Source: Planctomyces sp. SH-PL14
GTDB lineage: Bacteria > Planctomycetota > Planctomycetia > Planctomycetales > Planctomycetaceae
Direction of reading: 5' to 3'
Assembly: GCF_001610835.1 (NCBI RefSeq)
Contig: NZ_CP011270.1
Location: 620,001 to 684,000, forward strand
DNA: 64,000 bases
Below the pieces are notes generated by a model, which saw only the letters and a list, made by a program, of their open reading frames with translations, had not been told where the DNA came from and did no database searches. Position 1 is the first letter of the stretch. The number at the start of each line of letters is the position of its first letter. Positions 41,578-63,436 of the stretch are shown here, piece after piece. The position numbers and the translations under genes are program-made.

Positions 41578-42510
41578 ATGAAGTTTCCCTCCGATATCCT
41601 CTGCCGCTGCTGGTTCCTCGCCGGGCCGACCGCGAGCGGCAAGACCGCGGTCAGCCTGCGGCTGGCGGAGCGGATCGGGGCCGAAATCGTCGCGATGGAC
41701 TCGATGACCCTCTATCGCGAGATGGACATCGGGACCGCCAAGCCGACGGCCGAGGAGCGGACGCAGGTCCCGCACCACCTGTTCGACATCGTCGACCCCG
41801 CCGAGGACTTCTCGGTCGCCGAGTACCTCGACGCGGCGCTGCCGACGGTGAGCGACATCCTGGGACGGGGTCGCGTGCCGCTGTTCGTCGGCGGGACCGG
41901 TCTTTACCTCCGGTCACTCCTGCGAGGAGTCTTTGAAGGGCCGCCGGCCGACTGGCCGTACCGCCACGGGCTCGAAGCGGAGCTGGCCGCGACCTCCCCC
42001 GAAGCCCTGCATCAGAAGCTCGCCGCCGTCGATGCGGCGTCCGCGGCACGGCTGCACCCCAACGACGTCCGCCGCGTCATCCGGGCCCTGGAGATCGTCC
42101 ACCTGACGGGCCGGCCCGCCTCGGAACTCCACGACGAGCAGCCGCTCCCCGCGGATCAGCGGCCGCAGCACGTCGTCTGGCTGAGCCCGGACCGCGAGCG
42201 CCTTCACGAGCAGATCAACCGCCGCGTCGATCAGATGCTGCAGCAGGGACTCCTCCACGAAGTCACGGCCCTTCTGCGACGGCCGCGCGGACTTGGCCGG
42301 ACGGCACGGCAGGCGTTGGGCTACAAGGAGCTCCTGGACCACCTGGAAGGCCGCGAACCGCTCCCCGCCGCCGTCGATGCCATCAAGACCCGGACGCGGC
42401 AGTTCGCCAAACGGCAGTGCACGTGGTTTCGAAATCTCGAAGAGTGCCGCGCCGTCGAGATCGCACCGGGAGAAAGCGCTGATGCGATCGTGGAACGGAT
42501 CACGGGATAG
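41578..42510 (+). CDS. miaA: tRNA dimethylallyltransferase
   Basis: MiaA moves a dimethylallyl group onto A37 of tRNAs that read UNN codons. The 310-residue protein shows the P-loop LAGPTASGKTAVSLRL, then DSMTLYREMDIGTAKPTAEE, VPHHLFDIVDPAEDFSVAEY, LFVGGTGLYLRSLLRG, and the C-terminal LGYKELLDHLEGREPL and RTRQFAKRQCTWFRN, all standard for the family. The start at 41578 fits the family length, with ten residues before the P-loop strand. It is followed by the first copy of the 330-bp repeat and faces the ECF sigma gene. Confidence 0.94.
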   Translation: MKFPSDILCRCWFLAGPTASGKTAVSLRLAERIGAEIVAMDSMTLYREMDIGTAKPTAEERTQVPHHLFDIVDPAEDFSVAEYLDAALPTVSDILGRGRVPLFVGGTGLYLRSLLRGVFEGPPADWPYRHGLEAELAATSPEALHQKLAAVDAASAARLHPNDVRRVIRALEIVHLTGRPASELHDEQPLPADQRPQHVVWLSPDRERLHEQINRRVDQMLQQGLLHEVTALLRRPRGLGRTARQALGYKELLDHLEGREPLPAAVDAIKTRTRQFAKRQCTWFRNLEECRAVEIAPGESADAIVERITG

Positions 42511-42972
42511 GCAGCGGAATGGCTGGCTTAAACCGCGTCCTCGCCGGCACAGCTATGCTCGCTTAATCCCAACGTGCGACGGCCGCTGGGGTCAAGGGGG
42601 TCTCACCCCCTTGCCGCCGGAGGCACTTCCATGAGGAACCGTGGTAAGCAACGGGCGAAGCCTTTGTGGTACCGGCGTTGAGCACTCAACGCCCGCTTTG
42701 CAGTCCCCGCGGGTTGGTGAGGGGGCATACGACACGGTATCCGCGCTTGGACACGCCCCCCTTCAGACTATCTCTCGACGGCCAGGCCTCCGGCGGGCAA
42801 AGGGCCAGAAAAACAACACAGGCCCCTCTGCACTCCCCACCAGGGGCCAGCCCCTGGACCCCGGTTCGGCCAAGTGCGCCGTTCGAGCTGCAGCAGAAAC
42901 GAAAAAGACCACTCGGCAGCGCACTTGCGCCACCGAATGGTCTCACATTCCTGCTTCGCTGAAGCTCACAGC
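42511..42972. other. Convergent intergenic region (462 bp)
   Basis: The stretch between the stops of miaA and the ECF sigma gene is mostly filled by repeat copy A. The remaining 100 bases before the sigma gene stop show no gene and no clear terminator with a T run. Confidence 0.6.
42538..42867 (+). repeat. Structured intergenic repeat, copy A
   Basis: A block of about 330 bases begins 27 bases after the miaA stop and is shared with 50314-50643 (reverse orientation) and 52080-52391 (same orientation). Shared words include gaggaaccgtgg, tgagggggcatacgacacg, cgcgcttggacacg and ctgcactccccaccagg. Copy A differs by an A-rich stretch (agaaaaacaacacagg) where copies B and C have a GGGGC-x-GCCCC hairpin. 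Internal complementary runs (ggggtcaaggggg with cccccttg) suggest a folded RNA or DNA. Open frames across it are not conserved and are not called as genes. Confidence 0.85.
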
Positions 42973-43524
42973 TCACGCCGGCTGAAGCTCGCCAAGAGCA
43001 TCCTTCAACCGCGCCCGAGCCGTGTGCAACCGTCGCTTGATCGTCCCGACCGGGCTCGAAAACCGATCACTCATCTCCTTGAGAGACTGACCCTCAAAGT
43101 AGAACGCGACCAGCGTCTCCCGATCCAGCTTCCGCAACCGCGACAGGCCCTTCTTGACCTCCCGCGCCTGCTCCTGCCGGACCAGACCGTCAATCGGAAC
43201 ATCCGGCCGCGTCCGGAAGGCATCGAAGGTCTCCGGCGCCTGAGTCGTCTCATGCGGCCGCCGAACCGCCCGGTTGATCGACAACCGGATGGCAATCCGC
43301 TTGAGCCAGCCCACGAACCGTTCCGGTTCCCGGAGCTGATCAAGCTTACGGAGCATCCGCACAAAGACGTCCTGCGTCACTTCGGCCGCCTCGGCGCTGT
43401 TCCGCAACCGACGCATGACGATGGCGAAGACGGTCCCTTCGAACTGCTGGACGAGCTGGTTGAAAGCGGCCGGACAACCGGCCTGAGCCTGGCGAACCAG
43501 GAGGAGGAGTTCTAAGTCAGTCAT
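42973..43524 (-). CDS. ECF RNA polymerase sigma factor
   Basis: A sigma-70 family protein of 183 residues. Region 2 includes AFNQLVQQFEGTVFAIVMRR and EVTQDVFVRMLRKLDQL with the core- and -10-binding helix. The linker is rich in Arg/Pro. Region 4 holds REVKKGLSRLRKLDRETL, VAFYFEGQSLKEMSDRFSSP and VGTIKRRLHTARARLKDAL, the helix-turn-helix for the -35 element. ATG 43524 has GAGGTG six bases upstream on its strand; the frame runs on to 43815 in unlikely sequence. No anti-sigma gene is adjacent. The ribosome-binding site lies in a small hairpin (43530-43548). Confidence 0.9.
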   Translation of the reverse strand: MTDLELLLLVRQAQAGCPAAFNQLVQQFEGTVFAIVMRRLRNSAEAAEVTQDVFVRMLRKLDQLREPERFVGWLKRIAIRLSINRAVRRPHETTQAPETFDAFRTRPDVPIDGLVRQEQAREVKKGLSRLRKLDRETLVAFYFEGQSLKEMSDRFSSPVGTIKRRLHTARARLKDALGELQPA

Positions 43525-43529
43525 GGGCA

Positions 43530-43548
43530 CCTCTCGAAACCTGAGAGG
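43530..43548 (-). promoter_or_regulatory. Hairpin covering the ribosome-binding site of the ECF sigma gene
   Basis: On the minus strand CCTCTC and GAGAGG form a 6-bp stem around a 7-base loop, five bases before the ATG. The downstream arm contains the Shine-Dalgarno sequence, so the stem could hold translation down. Confidence 0.45.
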
Positions 43549-43914
43549 GGACGCCCCGTTCCCGTTTGAGGAGAATAGAGCGTGAGGATCAGCCCTTCGT
43601 CGCCGACTCACTTCGGCAAAAGTGAAGAGGCTGCTGAGAGACCCGGCGCTTGCGAATGACACATTCGAAAACGAGTGAAATCGGCCCCCTGATCGCGGAC
43701 AACGCCTGCGGATCAGAGGAGCACGCCGACACGAAGTCGGAAATTCCATCGGGGGCCTGGACAGGACTAGTCGCCGCGTAGAGCGTGAACTGCACGCAAA
43801 CGGCAACCGCATCAACTGATCTGAAACGACCAGCGACCGGTTTGGGCCACGATGGCGGGGCGGGCGGGGAACAACCGTTGTCCGTGGGTGCGGACGATCG
43901 TTTCCCCAACCCCG
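43549..43914. other. Intergenic region with no recognised feature
   Basis: Nothing convincing is seen between the ECF sigma leader and the small gene at 43915. A 121-codon minus-strand frame (43589-43954) overlaps both neighbours' signals, has no ribosome-binding site and is left out. The sigma factor promoter probably lies here. Confidence 0.4.
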
Positions 43915-44217
43915 TCAAAGTGAGACAGCTCGACTGATGGCGAGCAGTGCCCAAAGGGGCGCCGGAAGTTCGCTCTCAACTGGCGGCATGACGGATACGC
44001 CCGGTACCCGTACTGGCGAATATCTGCGGCTTGGCATCGATTCGCGCACGCTGGAGAGACAGCCTGTCTCCATCGACTTAGAGCGATGGATCTCAGAAAG
44101 CGGTTTCCCGAGGTGCATACGAATGCCCGAGCCGACGACGCGATCGCAAACGGTCGCGGCGGCCGCATTGAATGCGAACGTCTGTGCCGTGGCGGTCTTC
44201 GTGATCTGCTGGTTCAT
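43915..44217 (-). CDS. Small protein of unknown function behind a strong ribosome-binding site
   Basis: A 100-codon gene starting MNQQITKTATAQTFAFNAAA. AGGAGGT lies exactly seven bases before the ATG, the best Shine-Dalgarno sequence in the window. The first 30 codons favour G or C in the third position, the rest less so. The protein has an Ala/Thr-rich N terminus, a middle with GSGIRMHLGKPLSEI and a weakly hydrophobic end (APLWALLAISRAVSL). No domain was recognised. It is an orphan on the same strand as the ECF sigma gene 390 bases downstream. The frame is also open upstream to 44541, but the ribosome-binding site decides the start. Confidence 0.6.
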   Translation of the reverse strand: MNQQITKTATAQTFAFNAAAATVCDRVVGSGIRMHLGKPLSEIHRSKSMETGCLSSVRESMPSRRYSPVRVPGVSVMPPVESELPAPLWALLAISRAVSL

Positions 44218-44224
44218 CGCTGAT

Positions 44225-44287
44225 ACCTCCTGCGACCGCTCAGGGCGGTCTTCGGGAAACGAAACAAGGTGCCCCGTATTGTTTCCC
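44225..44287 (-). promoter_or_regulatory. Structured 5' leader of the small gene
   Basis: On the minus strand a 6-bp hairpin (GACCGC with GCGGTC, 44234-44250) ends two bases before AGGAGGT. Just upstream, GTTTCCC (44254-44260 complement) can pair with GGGAAAC (44281-44287), or the neighbouring TTGTTTC (44261-44267 complement) with GAAACAA (44279-44285). The two stems share bases and exclude each other, a layout seen in switching leaders. No known riboswitch consensus was recognised. Confidence 0.45.
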
Positions 44288-44840
44288 CGGGGCGGGTCCT
44301 CGAAAAGGGAGACCGAAAAGTTGGGTTGCTGGTCGAGCGCCAGGTCGGACGCCACGCCAGAAGGCATTCCCCATGGCCCGCAAACGCATCTCGTGCGTAG
44401 AAAGGAATGCATGGGAGTCAATACGTCACTACGACCCGGGCAGACCAGAAAAGGTTCGCGAGAAATCCGGAGATTCGGGGAAATTCGGAAATTCGTCCCG
44501 CTGGACACGTCGGAAAACCGGCCGCAAACGTGTTTTTCCAAGGAGAATTGATGCGTCCCGAACCGCAGGACGAGAGCGAAAAACGTCCGACAGCGGGAAC
44601 ACCATGGTGAGGCGGGCTAAGACCCACCCGGCTCGACCGCTGCCGGACGGACGCATTGTTCGGCAGCGAATCAATTCCTCAAGAGTCCGATCGACGTCGT
44701 TCCAGTGAACTCAGGGTTTCCCCGGACCTTTGGCCCTCCAGCAGTAACAACCCTTCCGGTGAAAACGATCCTCGGAAAACGAAACACGAACCCGCGCCGT
44801 CCGAAGGTGAGCACCGCCCGAAGAAGCCCCAGCGCAAACG
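44288..44840. other. Intergenic region with only tiny candidate frames
   Basis: No gene of normal size is seen. On the plus strand aaggag (44540-44545) precedes an ATG at 44551 that opens 19 codons (MRPEPQDESEKRPTAGTPW), overlapped by a 34-codon frame from ATG 44604. Both are too short to judge and may be chance. Confidence 0.35.
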
Positions 44841-44876
44841 AAGACGCCGCAATCGTTTACACGATTGCGGCGTCTT
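44841..44876 (-). terminator. Perfect 15-bp hairpin downstream of tRNA-Lys
   Basis: aagacgccgcaatcg (44841-44855) and its exact complement (44862-44876) flank a 6-base loop. It lies 9 bases past the 3' end of the minus-strand tRNA gene. There is no long T run after it in either direction, so it may stop or trim transcripts without a classical U tract. Confidence 0.75.
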
Positions 44877-44885
44877 GCCGATGAG

Positions 44886-44958
44886 TGCCCCCACAAGGAC
44901 TCGAACCTTGGACTTACTGATTAAGAGTCAGTTGCTCTACCAACTGAGCTATAGGGGC
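44886..44958 (-). tRNA. tRNA-Lys (anticodon CUU)
   Basis: The minus strand folds as a 73-base cloverleaf. The acceptor stem is GCCCCTA with TGGGGGC and discriminator A, the D arm is GCTCAGTTGGTAGAGC, the anticodon stem-loop is ACTGACTCTTAATCAGT with CTT at positions 34-36, and the T arm is CAAGGTTCGAGTCCTTG. CCA is not encoded. It reads AAG codons. A 15-bp hairpin follows it. Confidence 0.97.
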
Positions 44959-45099
44959 TTTTTGCGAGCGGGGAAAGGTATCGGCTCGCTCGCGGGAATT
45001 CAACCGCTCACATCGGCAATTTCGCCGGCACGCATGATGCAATTCGACCGCCCCCGACTGGACCGTCCCGGCCGCTCGTGGGTTCGCTCGGGAATGGCC

Positions 45100-45756
45100 T
45101 CACCCCTGGGCCTTTTGCCGAACCTCTTTCATCTTAGAGACATACTTCTCCGCCATCGCCCGGATGGTCCCCATGTCTCCCTTTGCCAGGGCCTCTTTCG
45201 TCACCAGATTGCTTCCCAACCCGACGGCACAGGCCCCGGATTTCACAAAGTCGCCGAGGGTATCGAGGTTGACGCCCCCCGTCGGCAGGAGCCGGACGTA
45301 GGGCAAGGGTCCATGAACCGCCTTCAGGTAGCCGGGGCCGCCGACTTCCGCCGGGAAAACCTTGATGAACTCCGCCCCCGCCTCCCAGGCGGTCAGAATT
45401 TCTGTCGGCGTGAACGCCCCGCACATGACCACCTTGTCGTAGCGGTGGCACGTTTCGATCACCGCCGGACGGACGACCGGGGTCACCAGGAATTCCGCCC
45501 CGGCCAGGATCGCGGCGCGGGCCGTCGCCTCGTCAAGGATCGTTCCGGCCCCCAGCAGGATCTTGTTCCCCAGTCGATCCCGCACCGCGGAAATGACCTC
45601 GAGCGCCCTGGGGACGGTCAACGTCACTTCCAGGACATCTACGCCCCCCTCGGCGAGCGCCTCGGACACCTGGACCAGCTGGTCACTGCTGGAAGACCGA
45701 ATGATCGCCACGATCCCGCTGTCGAGCACCCGCTGCACATCGTTGTGTCGAGACAT
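45100..45756 (-). CDS. eda: 2-keto-3-deoxy-6-phosphogluconate aldolase (KDPG/KHG aldolase)
   Basis: A class I aldolase of 218 residues. VLDSGIVAIIRSSSSDQLVQ, LEVTLTVPRALEVI (with the catalytic Glu), ILLGAGTILDEATARAAILA, AEFLVTPVVRPAVIETCHRY, EFIKVFPAEVGGPGYLKAV (the Lys forms the Schiff base) and VRLLPTGGVNLDTLGDF are the signature blocks. It splits KDPG into pyruvate and glyceraldehyde-3-phosphate in the Entner-Doudoroff route or in uronate breakdown. No edd or KDG kinase is adjacent. tRNA-Lys follows 141 bases downstream on the same strand. Upstream 279 bases separate it from the divergent DUF1549/1553 gene. Confidence 0.93.
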   Translation of the reverse strand: MSRHNDVQRVLDSGIVAIIRSSSSDQLVQVSEALAEGGVDVLEVTLTVPRALEVISAVRDRLGNKILLGAGTILDEATARAAILAGAEFLVTPVVRPAVIETCHRYDKVVMCGAFTPTEILTAWEAGAEFIKVFPAEVGGPGYLKAVHGPLPYVRLLPTGGVNLDTLGDFVKSGACAVGLGSNLVTKEALAKGDMGTIRAMAEKYVSKMKEVRQKAQG

Positions 45757-46035
45757 ACCCCTCGCCTGACCGTCAAAGAACTGATTTTTCGGACGAGTCA
45801 GTTTGTAGGACCTCCGCTGGGGAAACGCGAGAGTCTCGCTCGCACCGCCCCAGCAGGATTCGACCGGGGCATTTCATACACCAGTGCTTATTGATACGTT
45901 GTCCCCCGGCGAGTACCGTAGTGGCAGCGCTCCGAGTGCTCCCCTCCCGACAAGGAAGCGGCTGAGCCTTCCCCCCGACGCGCTCTCCTCTCCCCTTCCC
46001 CCCGGGAGCGAGCCGCTCTCATTCGAGCCTTTCGA

Positions 46036-48870
46036 ATGCCTGCCTCCCACGTCTTCCTGACTGTTACCCCCGCCAGAGCGCTGCTGTGGCGACTCGTCGC
46101 TCTCTTCGTGTTCCTCGCCCCCCTTCCGTCGCGCGTCGCGGCCGAAAATCCCTCCTCTCCGATGGGGCAGGCCACGAATGACGAGCGTCAGGGACACGAA
46201 TATTTCGAGCGGAACGTCCGGCCACTCCTGTCGCAGCACTGTTTCTCCTGTCACGCCAAGGGGCAGGCCAAAGGGGGCCTGAGTCTTGCCGACCGGAAGG
46301 GACTACTCGCCGGCGGCGAGGGAGGCGCGGTCGTCTCGCTCGAGAAGCCGAACGACAGCCCGCTGATCGCGGCGGTCGAGGGACGGGACGGCCTTCAAAT
46401 GCCGCCGAATTCGAACCTGAGCGACGCGGAAGTCGCGGTTCTCAAGCGATGGATCGAGCTGGGTGCTCCGTGGCCGGAGGCGGTCGAGGGGACCGCTCCG
46501 ACGGCCGGGACCGTAACCGCCGAAGCCCGCGAGTTCTGGGCCTTTCAGTCGGTGAAGCCGGTCGCGCCCCCTACAGTCCAGGACTTTGCCTGGGTCCGCC
46601 AACCGCTCGACCGGTTCGTGCTGGCCGCATTGGAAGCCCAGGGTCTCCGTCCTGTCGAGGAAGCCGATCGACGGACATTCATTCGCCGGGCCACGTTCGA
46701 CCTGACAGGCCTCCCTCCCAGTCCGCAGGAGGTCGCGGCGTTCCTGGCGGACGACGCTCCCGATGCCGACTCGCGGCTGGTCGACCGGCTGCTGGCATCG
46801 CCGCAGTATGGCGAGCGGTGGGGACGGACCTGGCTCGACGTCGCCCGCTACGGTGAAGACCAGGCCCACACCTTCCAGGCGCGGACCTATCCCAACGGCT
46901 ACCGCTACCGCGACTGGGTCGTCGCCGCGTTCAACGCCGACCTCCCATACGATCAGTTTGTGGTCGAGCAGATCGCGGGCGACCTGCTGCCGGCCTCAGA
47001 CCGTGCCGACGAAGAGCGTAAGGCGCGTTCCGCGGCACTCGGCTACTTTGCTCTCGGTCCGGTGTACTACAAGGACGCCGGCTGCGCGGGGAAGGCGGAG
47101 TCGGACGAGCTCGACGACCGGATCGACACCCTCTGCCGCGGATTCCTCGGGCTGACCGTCTCGTGCGCCCGCTGCCACGACCACAAATTCGATCCGATCT
47201 CGACGAAGGACTACTACGCGCTGGCCGGCGTCTTCGCCAGCACCGAGTACCGGGAAGTCCCGCTCGTCGCGGACGACGTCGTCCGCCGCTACGACGAGGC
47301 CGCGACCGCGATCAAGGACCGCGAGAAAGCGGTCAACGAGGCAAAGGCCGAGGCCACGCGTGAAGCGGGCGAACGGTTCGCTCCGGAAACGGCCAAGTAC
47401 ATCGTGGCCGCGTGGCGGCGGCGTCTCCCCGGTTCCGATGCCTCGGCCAAAGCCGATGCCGCCGCGAAGGACCAGGGCCTGAAACCGTTCCTCGTCGACC
47501 GGTGGGTCGAGTTCCTCAAGTCCGACATCGTTGGCAAGCGGCCCTACCTCGCTGGGCTTCAGCAAGCCCTCGGGGCCGAGGATCCCGCGGCCATGGAGAA
47601 GGCGGCCGTCCTGGTCCAGGACGAGCTCGTCGCGGCGCTGCAGACCCGCGATCAGGCGAAGACCGCGGAAGCAGGAGGATCGGAGAACTCCTCCTCAAGA
47701 CCGGCAACGGCCTCAGCGGCTCTGGCCCAGCCTGAGATCCTCAAAGACCTGCTGACCGACCGGAACGCCCCGTTCGCCATCCCCAAGGACCGGGCCGAAA
47801 AGCTGTTCTCCGACTCCGCCAAGGCGCGGCTCACCGCGCTGCAGAAGGACGTCGAGCAGGCGAAACAGAACCTCGGCCCCAAGTACCCGTTTGCTCATAG
47901 TCTGGCCGATGCCGCTCCGAAGAATCTCCAGGTCCATCTCCGGGGCAACCACAAGGACCTTGGCGACGAAGTCCCCCGACGCTTCCTCACCATCCTGACG
48001 GCGGACGCCGCCGAGCCCTTCCATGAGGGGAGCGGGCGGCTCGAACTGGCGCGGGCCATTGCCAGCCCCGCCAACCCGCTCACGGCGCGGGTCATGGTGA
48101 ACCGAATCTGGCTGAATCACTTCGGCCGCGGCCTGGTCGGGACTCCCAGCAACTTCGGCCTCCTCGGCGAGCGGCCGACGCACCCGGAGCTCCTGGACTA
48201 CCTCGCCGACCGATTCGTGTCTTCGGGCTGGTCGATCAAGGAGCTCCATCGCGAAATCCTGCTCTCCGCGACGTACCGGCTCAGCAGCGATTCGCGCGGC
48301 GAAGGGGCGGCGACGGCTCTCAACCGCGATCCCGACAACCGACTTCTCTGGCGGCAGAATCGCCGCCGCCTGGAGATCGAGGCGTGGCGGGACGCCATGC
48401 TGCTCGTCGGCGATCGTCTCGACGACCAGTTGGGTGGCCCCGCGGTCCGACTCGACGACGCCGGGAACCGCCGCCGAACGCTCTACGCCGCGATCAGTCG
48501 CCACGACCTGAACGGGACGCTCCGGATGTTCGACTTCCCCGATCCCAACCTGACGAGCGAGCGGCGCGTCAGCACGACCGTCCCGATGCAGCAGCTGTTC
48601 GTCCTGAACAGCGAGTTCCTCGCGCAGCAGGCCCGGGCGCTGTCTCAGCGGATTGCCCGGGAGGCGTCGGCCGATGACACCGTCCGAATCGCCGCTCTTT
48701 ATTCCCTCCTGTTCCAGCGCGATCCGACCGAGGCCGAGACGCAGGTCGGTCTCGCGTACCTCCAGAGCCCGCTCCCTGAAACCGTCGCGCCGGACGTCGT
48801 CAAGCTCTCCCCATGGGAGCGGTACGCGCAGGTCCTGCTCGGAACGAATGAGTTCCTGTTCCTCGACTGA
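46036..48870 (+). CDS. Planctomycete cytochrome c, DUF1549 and DUF1553 protein
   Basis: The 944-residue exported protein has a signal peptide (LLWRLVALFVFLAPLPSRVAA), then a cytochrome c-like domain with the haem motif CFSCHAKG, DUF1549 (FVLAALEAQGLRPVEEADRR, GERWGRTWLDVARYGEDQAH, and a second CxxCH in VSCARCHDHKFDPIST), a helical middle rich in Lys and Glu, and DUF1553 (NPLTARVMVNRIWLNHFGRG, SGWSIKELHREILLSATYRL). Many paralogues occur in planctomycetes, usually paired with DUF1501, as here. They are thought to act in polysaccharide use or electron transfer at the cell surface, but no reaction is established. The DUF1501 gene starts 15 bases later. Confidence 0.93.
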   Translation: MPASHVFLTVTPARALLWRLVALFVFLAPLPSRVAAENPSSPMGQATNDERQGHEYFERNVRPLLSQHCFSCHAKGQAKGGLSLADRKGLLAGGEGGAVVSLEKPNDSPLIAAVEGRDGLQMPPNSNLSDAEVAVLKRWIELGAPWPEAVEGTAPTAGTVTAEAREFWAFQSVKPVAPPTVQDFAWVRQPLDRFVLAALEAQGLRPVEEADRRTFIRRATFDLTGLPPSPQEVAAFLADDAPDADSRLVDRLLASPQYGERWGRTWLDVARYGEDQAHTFQARTYPNGYRYRDWVVAAFNADLPYDQFVVEQIAGDLLPASDRADEERKARSAALGYFALGPVYYKDAGCAGKAESDELDDRIDTLCRGFLGLTVSCARCHDHKFDPISTKDYYALAGVFASTEYREVPLVADDVVRRYDEAATAIKDREKAVNEAKAEATREAGERFAPETAKYIVAAWRRRLPGSDASAKADAAAKDQGLKPFLVDRWVEFLKSDIVGKRPYLAGLQQALGAEDPAAMEKAAVLVQDELVAALQTRDQAKTAEAGGSENSSSRPATASAALAQPEILKDLLTDRNAPFAIPKDRAEKLFSDSAKARLTALQKDVEQAKQNLGPKYPFAHSLADAAPKNLQVHLRGNHKDLGDEVPRRFLTILTADAAEPFHEGSGRLELARAIASPANPLTARVMVNRIWLNHFGRGLVGTPSNFGLLGERPTHPELLDYLADRFVSSGWSIKELHREILLSATYRLSSDSRGEGAATALNRDPDNRLLWRQNRRRLEIEAWRDAMLLVGDRLDDQLGGPAVRLDDAGNRRRTLYAAISRHDLNGTLRMFDFPDPNLTSERRVSTTVPMQQLFVLNSEFLAQQARALSQRIAREASADDTVRIAALYSLLFQRDPTEAETQVGLAYLQSPLPETVAPDVVKLSPWERYAQVLLGTNEFLFLD

Positions 48871-62431: not shown

Positions 62432-63436
62432 CTAGAACTCTCCGATAAGCCGTCCGTCAGCGATCATTCCCAGTAACTTGAACGTCTTCATCTCGATGGA
62501 GTCGTCGATCGCACGGACAGCGCCGTCACCCATGCACACATGAACCATCCCGGTGTGCGGCGATGTCAACGGATTGTTTGGCCCCTTGTTCTGATGAACA
62601 CCCGGCTGATTGTAATGAGAATTCGGCGGATACCTCAGAGTAGTAATGTTGTAACTATCTGTGACGATGTTTCCGACGGGGTTCAGGTAGACCGGAGGAA
62701 CACCCAATGCCGCCGTCCCCGCCAGGAGGCCGACATTGTGGGCTCCATCCACCCGCATCAGAGTCGGAGGGTTGGTGGCCAGGTTCTTCGCCTGCGAGGA
62801 ACACTCTCCCACCACGATCACGTTTGAGCTCCCGTCCTTCATCATCTCAACCGATGCGGTGCCATTTGGAAAGAGGGCGCCATCCGCTGAGATCTGCCCA
62901 GCGTTCGAGGACAGCAGACAGCAGTCCCGGACCCGAGTGGCAGGGGTCCCATCATGATTCGTTGACCCGGCGATACCAACGTACCCGGAAATCGGGAGAT
63001 TGAATCCGCCGGTCAACACGGTCGGCGCAAGGGAGCTGGAAGGGCATCTAAAAACGGGAAGATTCTTGTTGTGGAACACCTGACCGTTCGGCGAGTTCGA
63101 CAGACCGCAATTTGGATGCTGAAAATCGAAATCTTTGAATGCGTCACCCTGCTCAATATGAGGCAGCAGGCCGACAATCCAGGATGGTCCCACTCCGCGC
63201 GGTTGCGCGCGTGCGCCAATCGGGAACGAACCGAAGGTGTCTTGATAGTTATGGAGGGCGAGGCCGATCTGTCGAAGATTGCTCCGGCACGCCGCCCGAT
63301 TGGCTATCTCCCGCGCATATTGGACCGCAGGCAGCAAGATCGCGACGAGAATGGCGATGATCGCAATGACGACCAGCAATTCGATCAGCGTGAAACCTCG
63401 CTGACGCCGTGAGGACCTTGGAAAATCCAACACCAT
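62432..63436 (-). CDS. DUF1559 protein with type IV pilin-like N terminus
   Basis: A 334-residue member of DUF1559, greatly expanded in planctomycetes. [20 protein letters not shown] is a prepilin cleavage and assembly motif, followed by [40 protein letters not shown] and the C-terminal [19 protein letters not shown], all family signatures. The product is probably processed by a prepilin peptidase and assembled into pseudopilin-like structures, function unknown. AGGAGGAG directly precedes the ATG at 63436; the frame is open to 63610. A perfect 8-bp hairpin lies in its leader. Confidence 0.92.

Follow-up and report, generated by a model that had tools for sequence, protein, structure and literature searches.

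A small gene of Planctomyces sp. SH-PL14 has counterparts in related planctomycetes that keep their order and strand upstream of an ECF sigma factor gene while other neighbours change. The small gene, P0001, encodes 100 residues on the minus strand of a 64,000-nt stretch of contig NZ_CP011270.1 (positions 620,001–684,000 of the forward strand; hereafter the window, whose own numbering we use). It runs from an ATG at 44217 to a TGA stop at 43917–43915, and its partner, an ECF gene of 183 residues (42973–43524, minus strand), begins 390 nt 3′ of that stop. Comparative sequence evidence indicates that P0001 is a real, fast-changing protein-coding gene of no catalogued family and a likely regulator of the neighbouring sigma factor. 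We consider it a candidate leader gene, in which the translation state of the small ORF would set ECF sigma output from one transcript, and we place the probability of this reading at roughly 0.4. No account of the pair turned up among the open-access papers listed by our searches, although the sigma factor may already have an ECF group number, and a preliminary description of the region, made from the letters of the window, had overlooked the most informative fact about it, namely the constant ECF sigma partner.

Profile searches of P0001 against Pfam and NCBIfam returned zero matches, which bears out the earlier assignment to no known family, and nine relatives gave nothing beyond three sub-threshold hits (E 0.14–0.2). 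The partner has the two sigma-70 domains expected of an ECF sigma factor, region 2 and region 4 (Pfam Sigma70_r2, 3.7e-13; Sigma70_r4_2, 1e-7; TIGR02937, 4.4e-24), and it is matched at E ≤ 1e-25 in 204 of 248 genomes of the class, with one match per listed genome among up to 13 candidates scored in each. The other neighbours are a convergent IPP-transferase gene (41578–42510) and a KDPG-aldolase-type gene (45756–45100); there is no anti-sigma gene among the window's own annotated neighbours. The sole tRNA gene that ARAGORN finds in the window, tRNA-Lys (CTT; 44885–44958, minus strand), lies ~0.6 kb upstream of the small-gene leader. Elsewhere in the window, an ORF starting at 63436 on the minus strand is preceded by an AGGAG Shine–Dalgarno (SD) sequence, and its N-terminus resembles what we take to be a prepilin-type signal.

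Directly upstream of P0001, an AGGAGGT SD sequence (44225–44231, minus strand) stands 7 nt 5′ of the ATG. It is the single AGGAGGT in the 64 kb that has an ATG 3–9 nt after it, when both strands are scanned for ATG starts; the preliminary description had called it the strongest SD in the window. Rfam gave seven matches at E ≤ 5 in 42500–46100 (the tRNA and sub-threshold hits elsewhere), none of which overlaps 43915–44287. No promoter was recognised near the small gene, the leader alignment contained no −35-like element in register with the leader hairpin described below, and terminator-like sites in 43500–45100 numbered two, against 2.2 expected by chance.

Because its protein drifts, the small gene is hardly visible to plain homology searches. 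A scan of genome contigs with P0001 found no relative, DNA similarity across the region in relatives amounted to scattered short hits, and the top match from 170 genomes of the family was a weak one (38%, E 3.3e-5). That match, in genome G011, lies ~390 nt upstream of the ECF orthologue, the same spacing as in the window. We uncovered the relatives by position, searching the regions upstream of ECF orthologues. Of the 338 loci from an ECF-alignment scan we kept the best 80, nearly all labelled as planctomycetes; 73 of these named loci hold the small gene with an assigned start, and BLAST clustering raises the count to 76, since the upstream ORFs of L131, L139 and L141 group with that of L138. 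The remaining four loci (L079, L091, L106 and L107) have less than 430 nt of upstream sequence. The gene had been called an orphan; with relatives upstream of the orthologous ECF gene at 73 to 76 of these best 80 loci, it is not one. Two further loci fall outside parts of the comparison: L133 is absent from the first leader set, and L198 is too short.

The layout is specific to strand and place. An SD-led ORF of 85–200 residues lies upstream of the ECF gene in the sense direction at 53 of 74 named loci, compared with 3/74 in antisense and 0/60 in sense far upstream. When we clustered the flanking ORFs of 81 loci, the largest non-ECF cluster was a clade of the small ORF (11 loci), and apart from the ECF and small-ORF clusters every flanking cluster covered at most 9 of the 81. 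The ECF gene and the small ORF are therefore the only recurring pair, and no anti-sigma gene is conserved nearby. P0001 could instead be an independent small-protein gene that merely stays beside the ECF gene, which would have a promoter of its own in the spacer (43549–43914 in the window, from the small gene to the hairpin at the ECF ribosome-binding site). The gap is indeed long, 184–735 nt from stop to ECF start with a median of 309 over 49 non-redundant loci, and the spacer is patchily conserved in close pairs, with an unconserved middle in the pair L119/L136. We nevertheless judge this explanation unlikely, given that order and strand stay constant while other neighbours vary.

The small protein has three blocks: a polar N-terminus, a middle in which GK(R/P)L is frequent and, at the C-terminus, the motif LPAxxWAxLVxSRA. 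In P0001 the last block reads LPAPLWALLAISRAVSL (43918–43968, minus strand), a predicted helix. The window was excluded from the training of the N- and C-terminal HMMs, but most of the loci that they later matched were included (58 of them for the N-terminal model), so that for both models only the strand and place controls are informative. At E ≤ 0.05 the N-terminal HMM matches 61 of 81 loci in the sense direction upstream of the ECF gene, a count that is largely by construction; its controls (antisense, downstream and, at 61 loci, far upstream) gave no match. The C-terminal HMM matches 46 of 81 loci; its controls gave one antisense match at E ≤ 0.05 but no downstream or far-upstream match. 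This HMM also recovers the window protein (E 6e-6 at Z 3000), for which the N-terminal HMM is not convincing (E 0.5). In the AlphaFold2 model of P0001 (mean pLDDT 64, pTM 0.25), the confident part is the C-terminal helix alone (residues 86–99; block pLDDT 84 and 90).

Substitution patterns support coding, as measured by pairwise NG86 dN/dS within clades, values that are not independent events. In seven of eight clades of relatives the annotated frame has a dN/dS of 0.33–0.55, below both shifted frames; the exceptional clade is Gimesia, at 0.75. In three clades the small gene (0.21–0.66) evolves under weaker constraint than the ECF gene (0.03–0.18). In 10 of 12 clades, all except those of Gimesia and L075, synonymous divergence in codons 2–26 falls below that of mid-gene, which indicates that some of the selection on these codons acts on nucleotides; the corresponding segment of P0001, codons 1 to ~26, is 44140–44217 (minus strand), its constraint being read from relatives rather than from the window. 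Over the last 20 codons, clades with the W motif show protein-level constraint (dN.02/dS.25 in the L108 clade,.12/1.05 in the L119 clade), and clades without it do not (.44/.43 in a second family, f2;.24/.37 in the L083 clade;.16/.06 in Gimesia). This motif is present near the stop in several clades; it was not seen in the clades of Gimesia (L097), L083 and L123 or in the aligned proteins of families f2, f3 and f5. By these measures selection on the gene is composite, with nucleotide-level constraint on the first ~25 codons, a weak middle and protein-level constraint on a C-terminal helix motif in several clades. Two pairs of loci, L119/L120 and L132/L135, stand apart in that synonymous divergence is much lower in the small gene than in the ECF gene (dS 0.013 versus 0.178 and 0.099 versus 0.707), which suggests unusual nucleotide constraint or local recombination.

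The leader of P0001 contains a 6-bp hairpin, GACCGC-cctga-GCGGTC, with arms at 44250–44245 and 44239–44234 (minus strand). The preliminary description had noted this hairpin touching the SD; in relatives it is conserved with changing stems. A covariance model, R1, built from 12 relatives with the window left out, recovers the leader of the window at 23.8 bits (E 2e-4 over 646 kb), and at E ≤ 0.0024 it matches 41 of 79 sources, namely the window, the 12 loci used for training and 28 more. Over 297 genomes of the class, 61 have a match at E ≤ 0.01, 50 of them in the family of the window (f1, probably Planctomycetaceae, judging by the labels of the named records). There are 38 matches at E ≤ 1e-4, and all 31 for which the place of the ECF gene is given lie on its strand, ~0.5–1.0 kb upstream (compared by eye). 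R1 is specific and not sensitive: at E ≤ 0.01 it misses no fewer than 19 genomes of f1 in which the ECF gene is present. Matches between E 1e-4 and 0.01 in f1 include unlinked ones in G061, G184 and G029 and a second in G001, and G164 has a partial match and no ECF match; outside f1, 11 genomes are matched, and the three with an ECF place (G205, G244 and G324) are all unlinked. We read the weak unlinked matches as chance. A regulon-wide leader was also considered and rejected: in the organism's own 8.4-Mb genome the window is the top and sole clear R1 match (E 0.0027; next 0.088) among the 150 of 12,915 first-look candidates that were scored.

Hairpin conservation rests on shuffle tests that are not fitted to R1 and on comparisons between clades. 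Over 49 non-redundant leaders the hairpin beats shuffled sequences (19 at p ≤ 0.05, Fisher 1.7e-15), compared with 5/49 and 4/49 in controls 200 and 300 nt upstream (Fisher 0.17 and 0.52). Among 34 leaders with starts picked regardless of hairpin or R1, 10 reach p ≤ 0.05 (Fisher 1.1e-9), against 4 of 34 in the −200 control (0.048). In one set of 34 loci, the window included, starts were scored partly by the hairpin, and 33 of those 34 starts are unchanged without that term. The stems vary by clade with pairing kept, as in GAGCCCG/CGGGCTC, GAGCCTG/CAGGCTC and GAGTCTG/CAGACTC, and likewise in CTGCGG/CCGCAG, CCGCC/GGCGG and GCGGG/CCCGC. Double changes are rare in pair counts from the R1-fitted alignment (3 of 6 pairs, 10 of 220 cells), since that alignment is pinned to CTGCGG. 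Exceptions exist: L063 has no hairpin, and L100 and L140 have deviant leaders. Of 49 non-redundant small-gene leaders, 31 have a GGAGG within 18 nt of the start; for the ECF leaders the figure is 7 of 49 when starts are refined (5/49 unrefined).

Taken alone, the window could be explained by a chance ORF beside a chance hairpin. Its hairpin has p 0.05, its leader (44287–44218) folds like shuffled sequences (z −0.49, with 57 of 200 shuffles as good), and the N-terminal HMM gives E 0.5 on it. Conservation refutes this account, to which we assign next to no weight: R1 and the C-terminal HMM, each built without the window, both find the window, and the strand and position controls point the same way. 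Once relatives are counted, the alignments place the ORF, its SD and the 6-bp hairpin far beyond chance.

The same is not true of the alternative stems reported in the preliminary description, two mutually exclusive 7-bp pairings in 44254–44287 (minus strand). Both are present: stem 1 pairs 44287–44281 with 44260–44254, stem 2 pairs 44285–44279 with 44267–44261, and GAAAC is common to both. Two such exclusive stems arise in 2 of 1,000 shuffles, yet in 42 of 3,654 70-nt windows of the same 64 kb. Of the 49 non-redundant leaders, the window's is the only one to have them, and no conserved alternative pairings were found over these 49. Folding 5′ of the hairpin is close to that of controls (mean z −0.72 versus −0.49 and −0.26 over 43 leaders; +0.22 for the window), and the whole window leader has the unremarkable z given above. 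A riboswitch-like leader with mutually exclusive stems, for which the existence of both stems in the window speaks, is therefore largely refuted by these leader comparisons and in our view very improbable. What survives of the proposed regulated leader, or new cis-regulatory RNA, is a conserved cis element at the SD and not an exclusive-stem switch; conservation in related genomes extends to the ORF frame and the leader, but not to the 7-bp stems.

Within the same segment, a pyrimidine-rich tract, TTGTTTCGTTTCCC (44254–44267, minus strand), lies 3 nt 5′ of the hairpin and coincides with an information peak at −14 to −7 before the stem in 43 non-redundant leaders. The tract keeps its character across leaders, being TTTYC-like in f1 and, by eye, TTCTCTC or CCTCAC in other families. 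As an anti-SD element it was rejected: matched duplexes average −4.88 kcal/mol versus −5.10 for swapped ones, and 90% of 2,000 swaps over 81 leaders are as good or better. A second upstream stem-loop or terminator is not clearly above controls family-wide, and some clades have one. In the Gimesia clade (L097, L098, L112, L113 and L121), a terminator-like stem-loop with a T-rich run precedes the conserved hairpin, for example GAGGC-AGAAC-GCCTC-T8 in L097, with a GAGGT/ACCTC variant in L112 and L113. Short GC hairpins beside a strong SD are also known from ompA-type leaders, where they are 5′-terminal or at the ribosome-binding site. The small-gene leader shares this arrangement; unlike the ompA type, it goes with a single gene, throughout one bacterial family and probably its class.

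Whether such a leader would act in cis, through the ORF's own translation, or in trans, through the peptide, is a choice that we infer. In the trans alternative, a mostly disordered small protein would bind the ECF sigma factor or RNA polymerase through its C-terminal helix, as a FlgM-like anti-sigma. FlgM-type anti-sigma factors have ~100 residues, are largely disordered with a C-terminal helix, and partner the flagellar sigma factor. P0001 is alike in size, disorder, C-terminal helix and sigma pairing, and it is encoded adjacent to its ECF gene, but it has no Pfam match and its binding is putative. Constant association with the ECF gene, beside which nothing else recurs, the confident helix in an otherwise low-confidence model and the protein-level constraint on the last 20 codons in the L108 and L119 clades would all fit a trans-acting partner. 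They are offset by the absence of the motif from whole clades that keep leader, ORF and ECF gene, by near-neutral evolution of the protein outside f1 (within-family dN/dS 0.61–0.89, 12 pairs) and by the lack of any Pfam or NCBIfam domain match, known anti-sigma domains included, for P0001 and the nine relatives searched. We regard the trans reading as possible, if less probable, and rank it close behind control by leader translation.

Two observations tip the balance toward the leader-gene reading. The leader, the SD, the start region and the frame are kept even where the end of the peptide is not, which favours control through translation of the leader ORF, and clades that lack the C-terminal motif still retain the ORF, so that translation seems to matter more than sequence. 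We propose that the small ORF and the ECF gene form one regulatory unit on the same transcript, that translation of the small ORF would be gated at the hairpin and SD, and that in f1 the C-terminal nascent peptide might provide a further gate. The target for coupling could be the ECF gene's own SD, which some members of the family have within a hairpin or next to one; the hairpin of the window is CCTCTC-aggtttc-GAGAGG (43548–43530, minus strand), a 6-bp stem with the SD in its 3′ arm and p 0.32 when taken alone. Such hairpins are modestly enriched over 66 non-redundant ECF leaders (8/66 at p ≤ 0.05, Fisher 3.9e-6). Comparable ones, such as CCCTCC/GGAGGG and CCACTC/GAGTGG, occur in part of the relatives.

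Several findings count against this leader-gene reading. TnaC- and SecM-type leaders have an upstream ORF with a drifting body, a C-terminal motif near the stop and the regulated gene immediately downstream. The small ORF is like them in its upstream position and drifting body and, in some clades, in a motif near the stop, but this motif is absent in many lineages, arrest would be hypothetical, and the 184–735-nt gap is long for classical attenuation or arrest-peptide control, with no regulated ribosome-binding site or terminator directly 3′ of the leader ORF. The protein-level selection at the C-terminus would fit a free-standing protein too, coding evidence outside f1 is thin, enrichment of the ECF ribosome-binding-site hairpin is modest, and no promoter was recognised.

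To look beyond f1, we hand-picked 56 upstream regions from the listed ECF matches. Here, an SD-led ORF of 85–200 residues lies upstream of the ECF gene in 43 of 56 regions in sense and 3 of 56 in antisense, and most of the regions have a similar layout with family-specific ORFs. In f2, MLNRNNLTLSALSNRLNLGTRSLVL occurs with hairpins such as CCGCCT/AGGCGG and CCACCTC/GAGGTGG, and the f5 hairpin is CTGCGCG/CGCGTAG. Some regions are misfits: no ORF came up in L199, and the ORFs picked in L206, L215, L219 and L222 seem unrelated. The small proteins of different families are not alignable by eye, and in f3 frame 0 does not have the lowest dN/dS. Homology of the small ORFs across families would rest on their position, on the leader and on the frame staying open. 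The broadest form of our proposal, which we hold to be doubtful, is a class-wide leader gene of ancient origin that would couple the cell's translation state to an ECF sigma factor through a hairpin-gated start and, in f1, a nascent peptide.

Planctomycetes signal through a large class of ECF sigma factors, many of which have no obvious partner. If the leader-gene reading is correct, the ECF sigma factor described here would be governed by a leader ORF in place of an anti-sigma factor. According to the portions of one survey that we consulted, several ECF groups have a conserved neighbour other than an anti-sigma factor as candidate regulator, and such neighbours comprise known domains, two-component systems, kinases, proteases and regulator genes (PMC8999054). 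The present pair is like those groups in having no conserved adjacent anti-sigma gene and a conserved neighbour as candidate regulator; unlike the neighbours named in those portions of the survey, this one is an uncatalogued ORF of ~100 residues behind a hairpin leader. An ECF sigma factor matched in 204 of the 248 class genomes thereby gains, in its one constant companion, a concrete candidate for its control, and the case illustrates how a leader-level signature can conceal a conserved gene.
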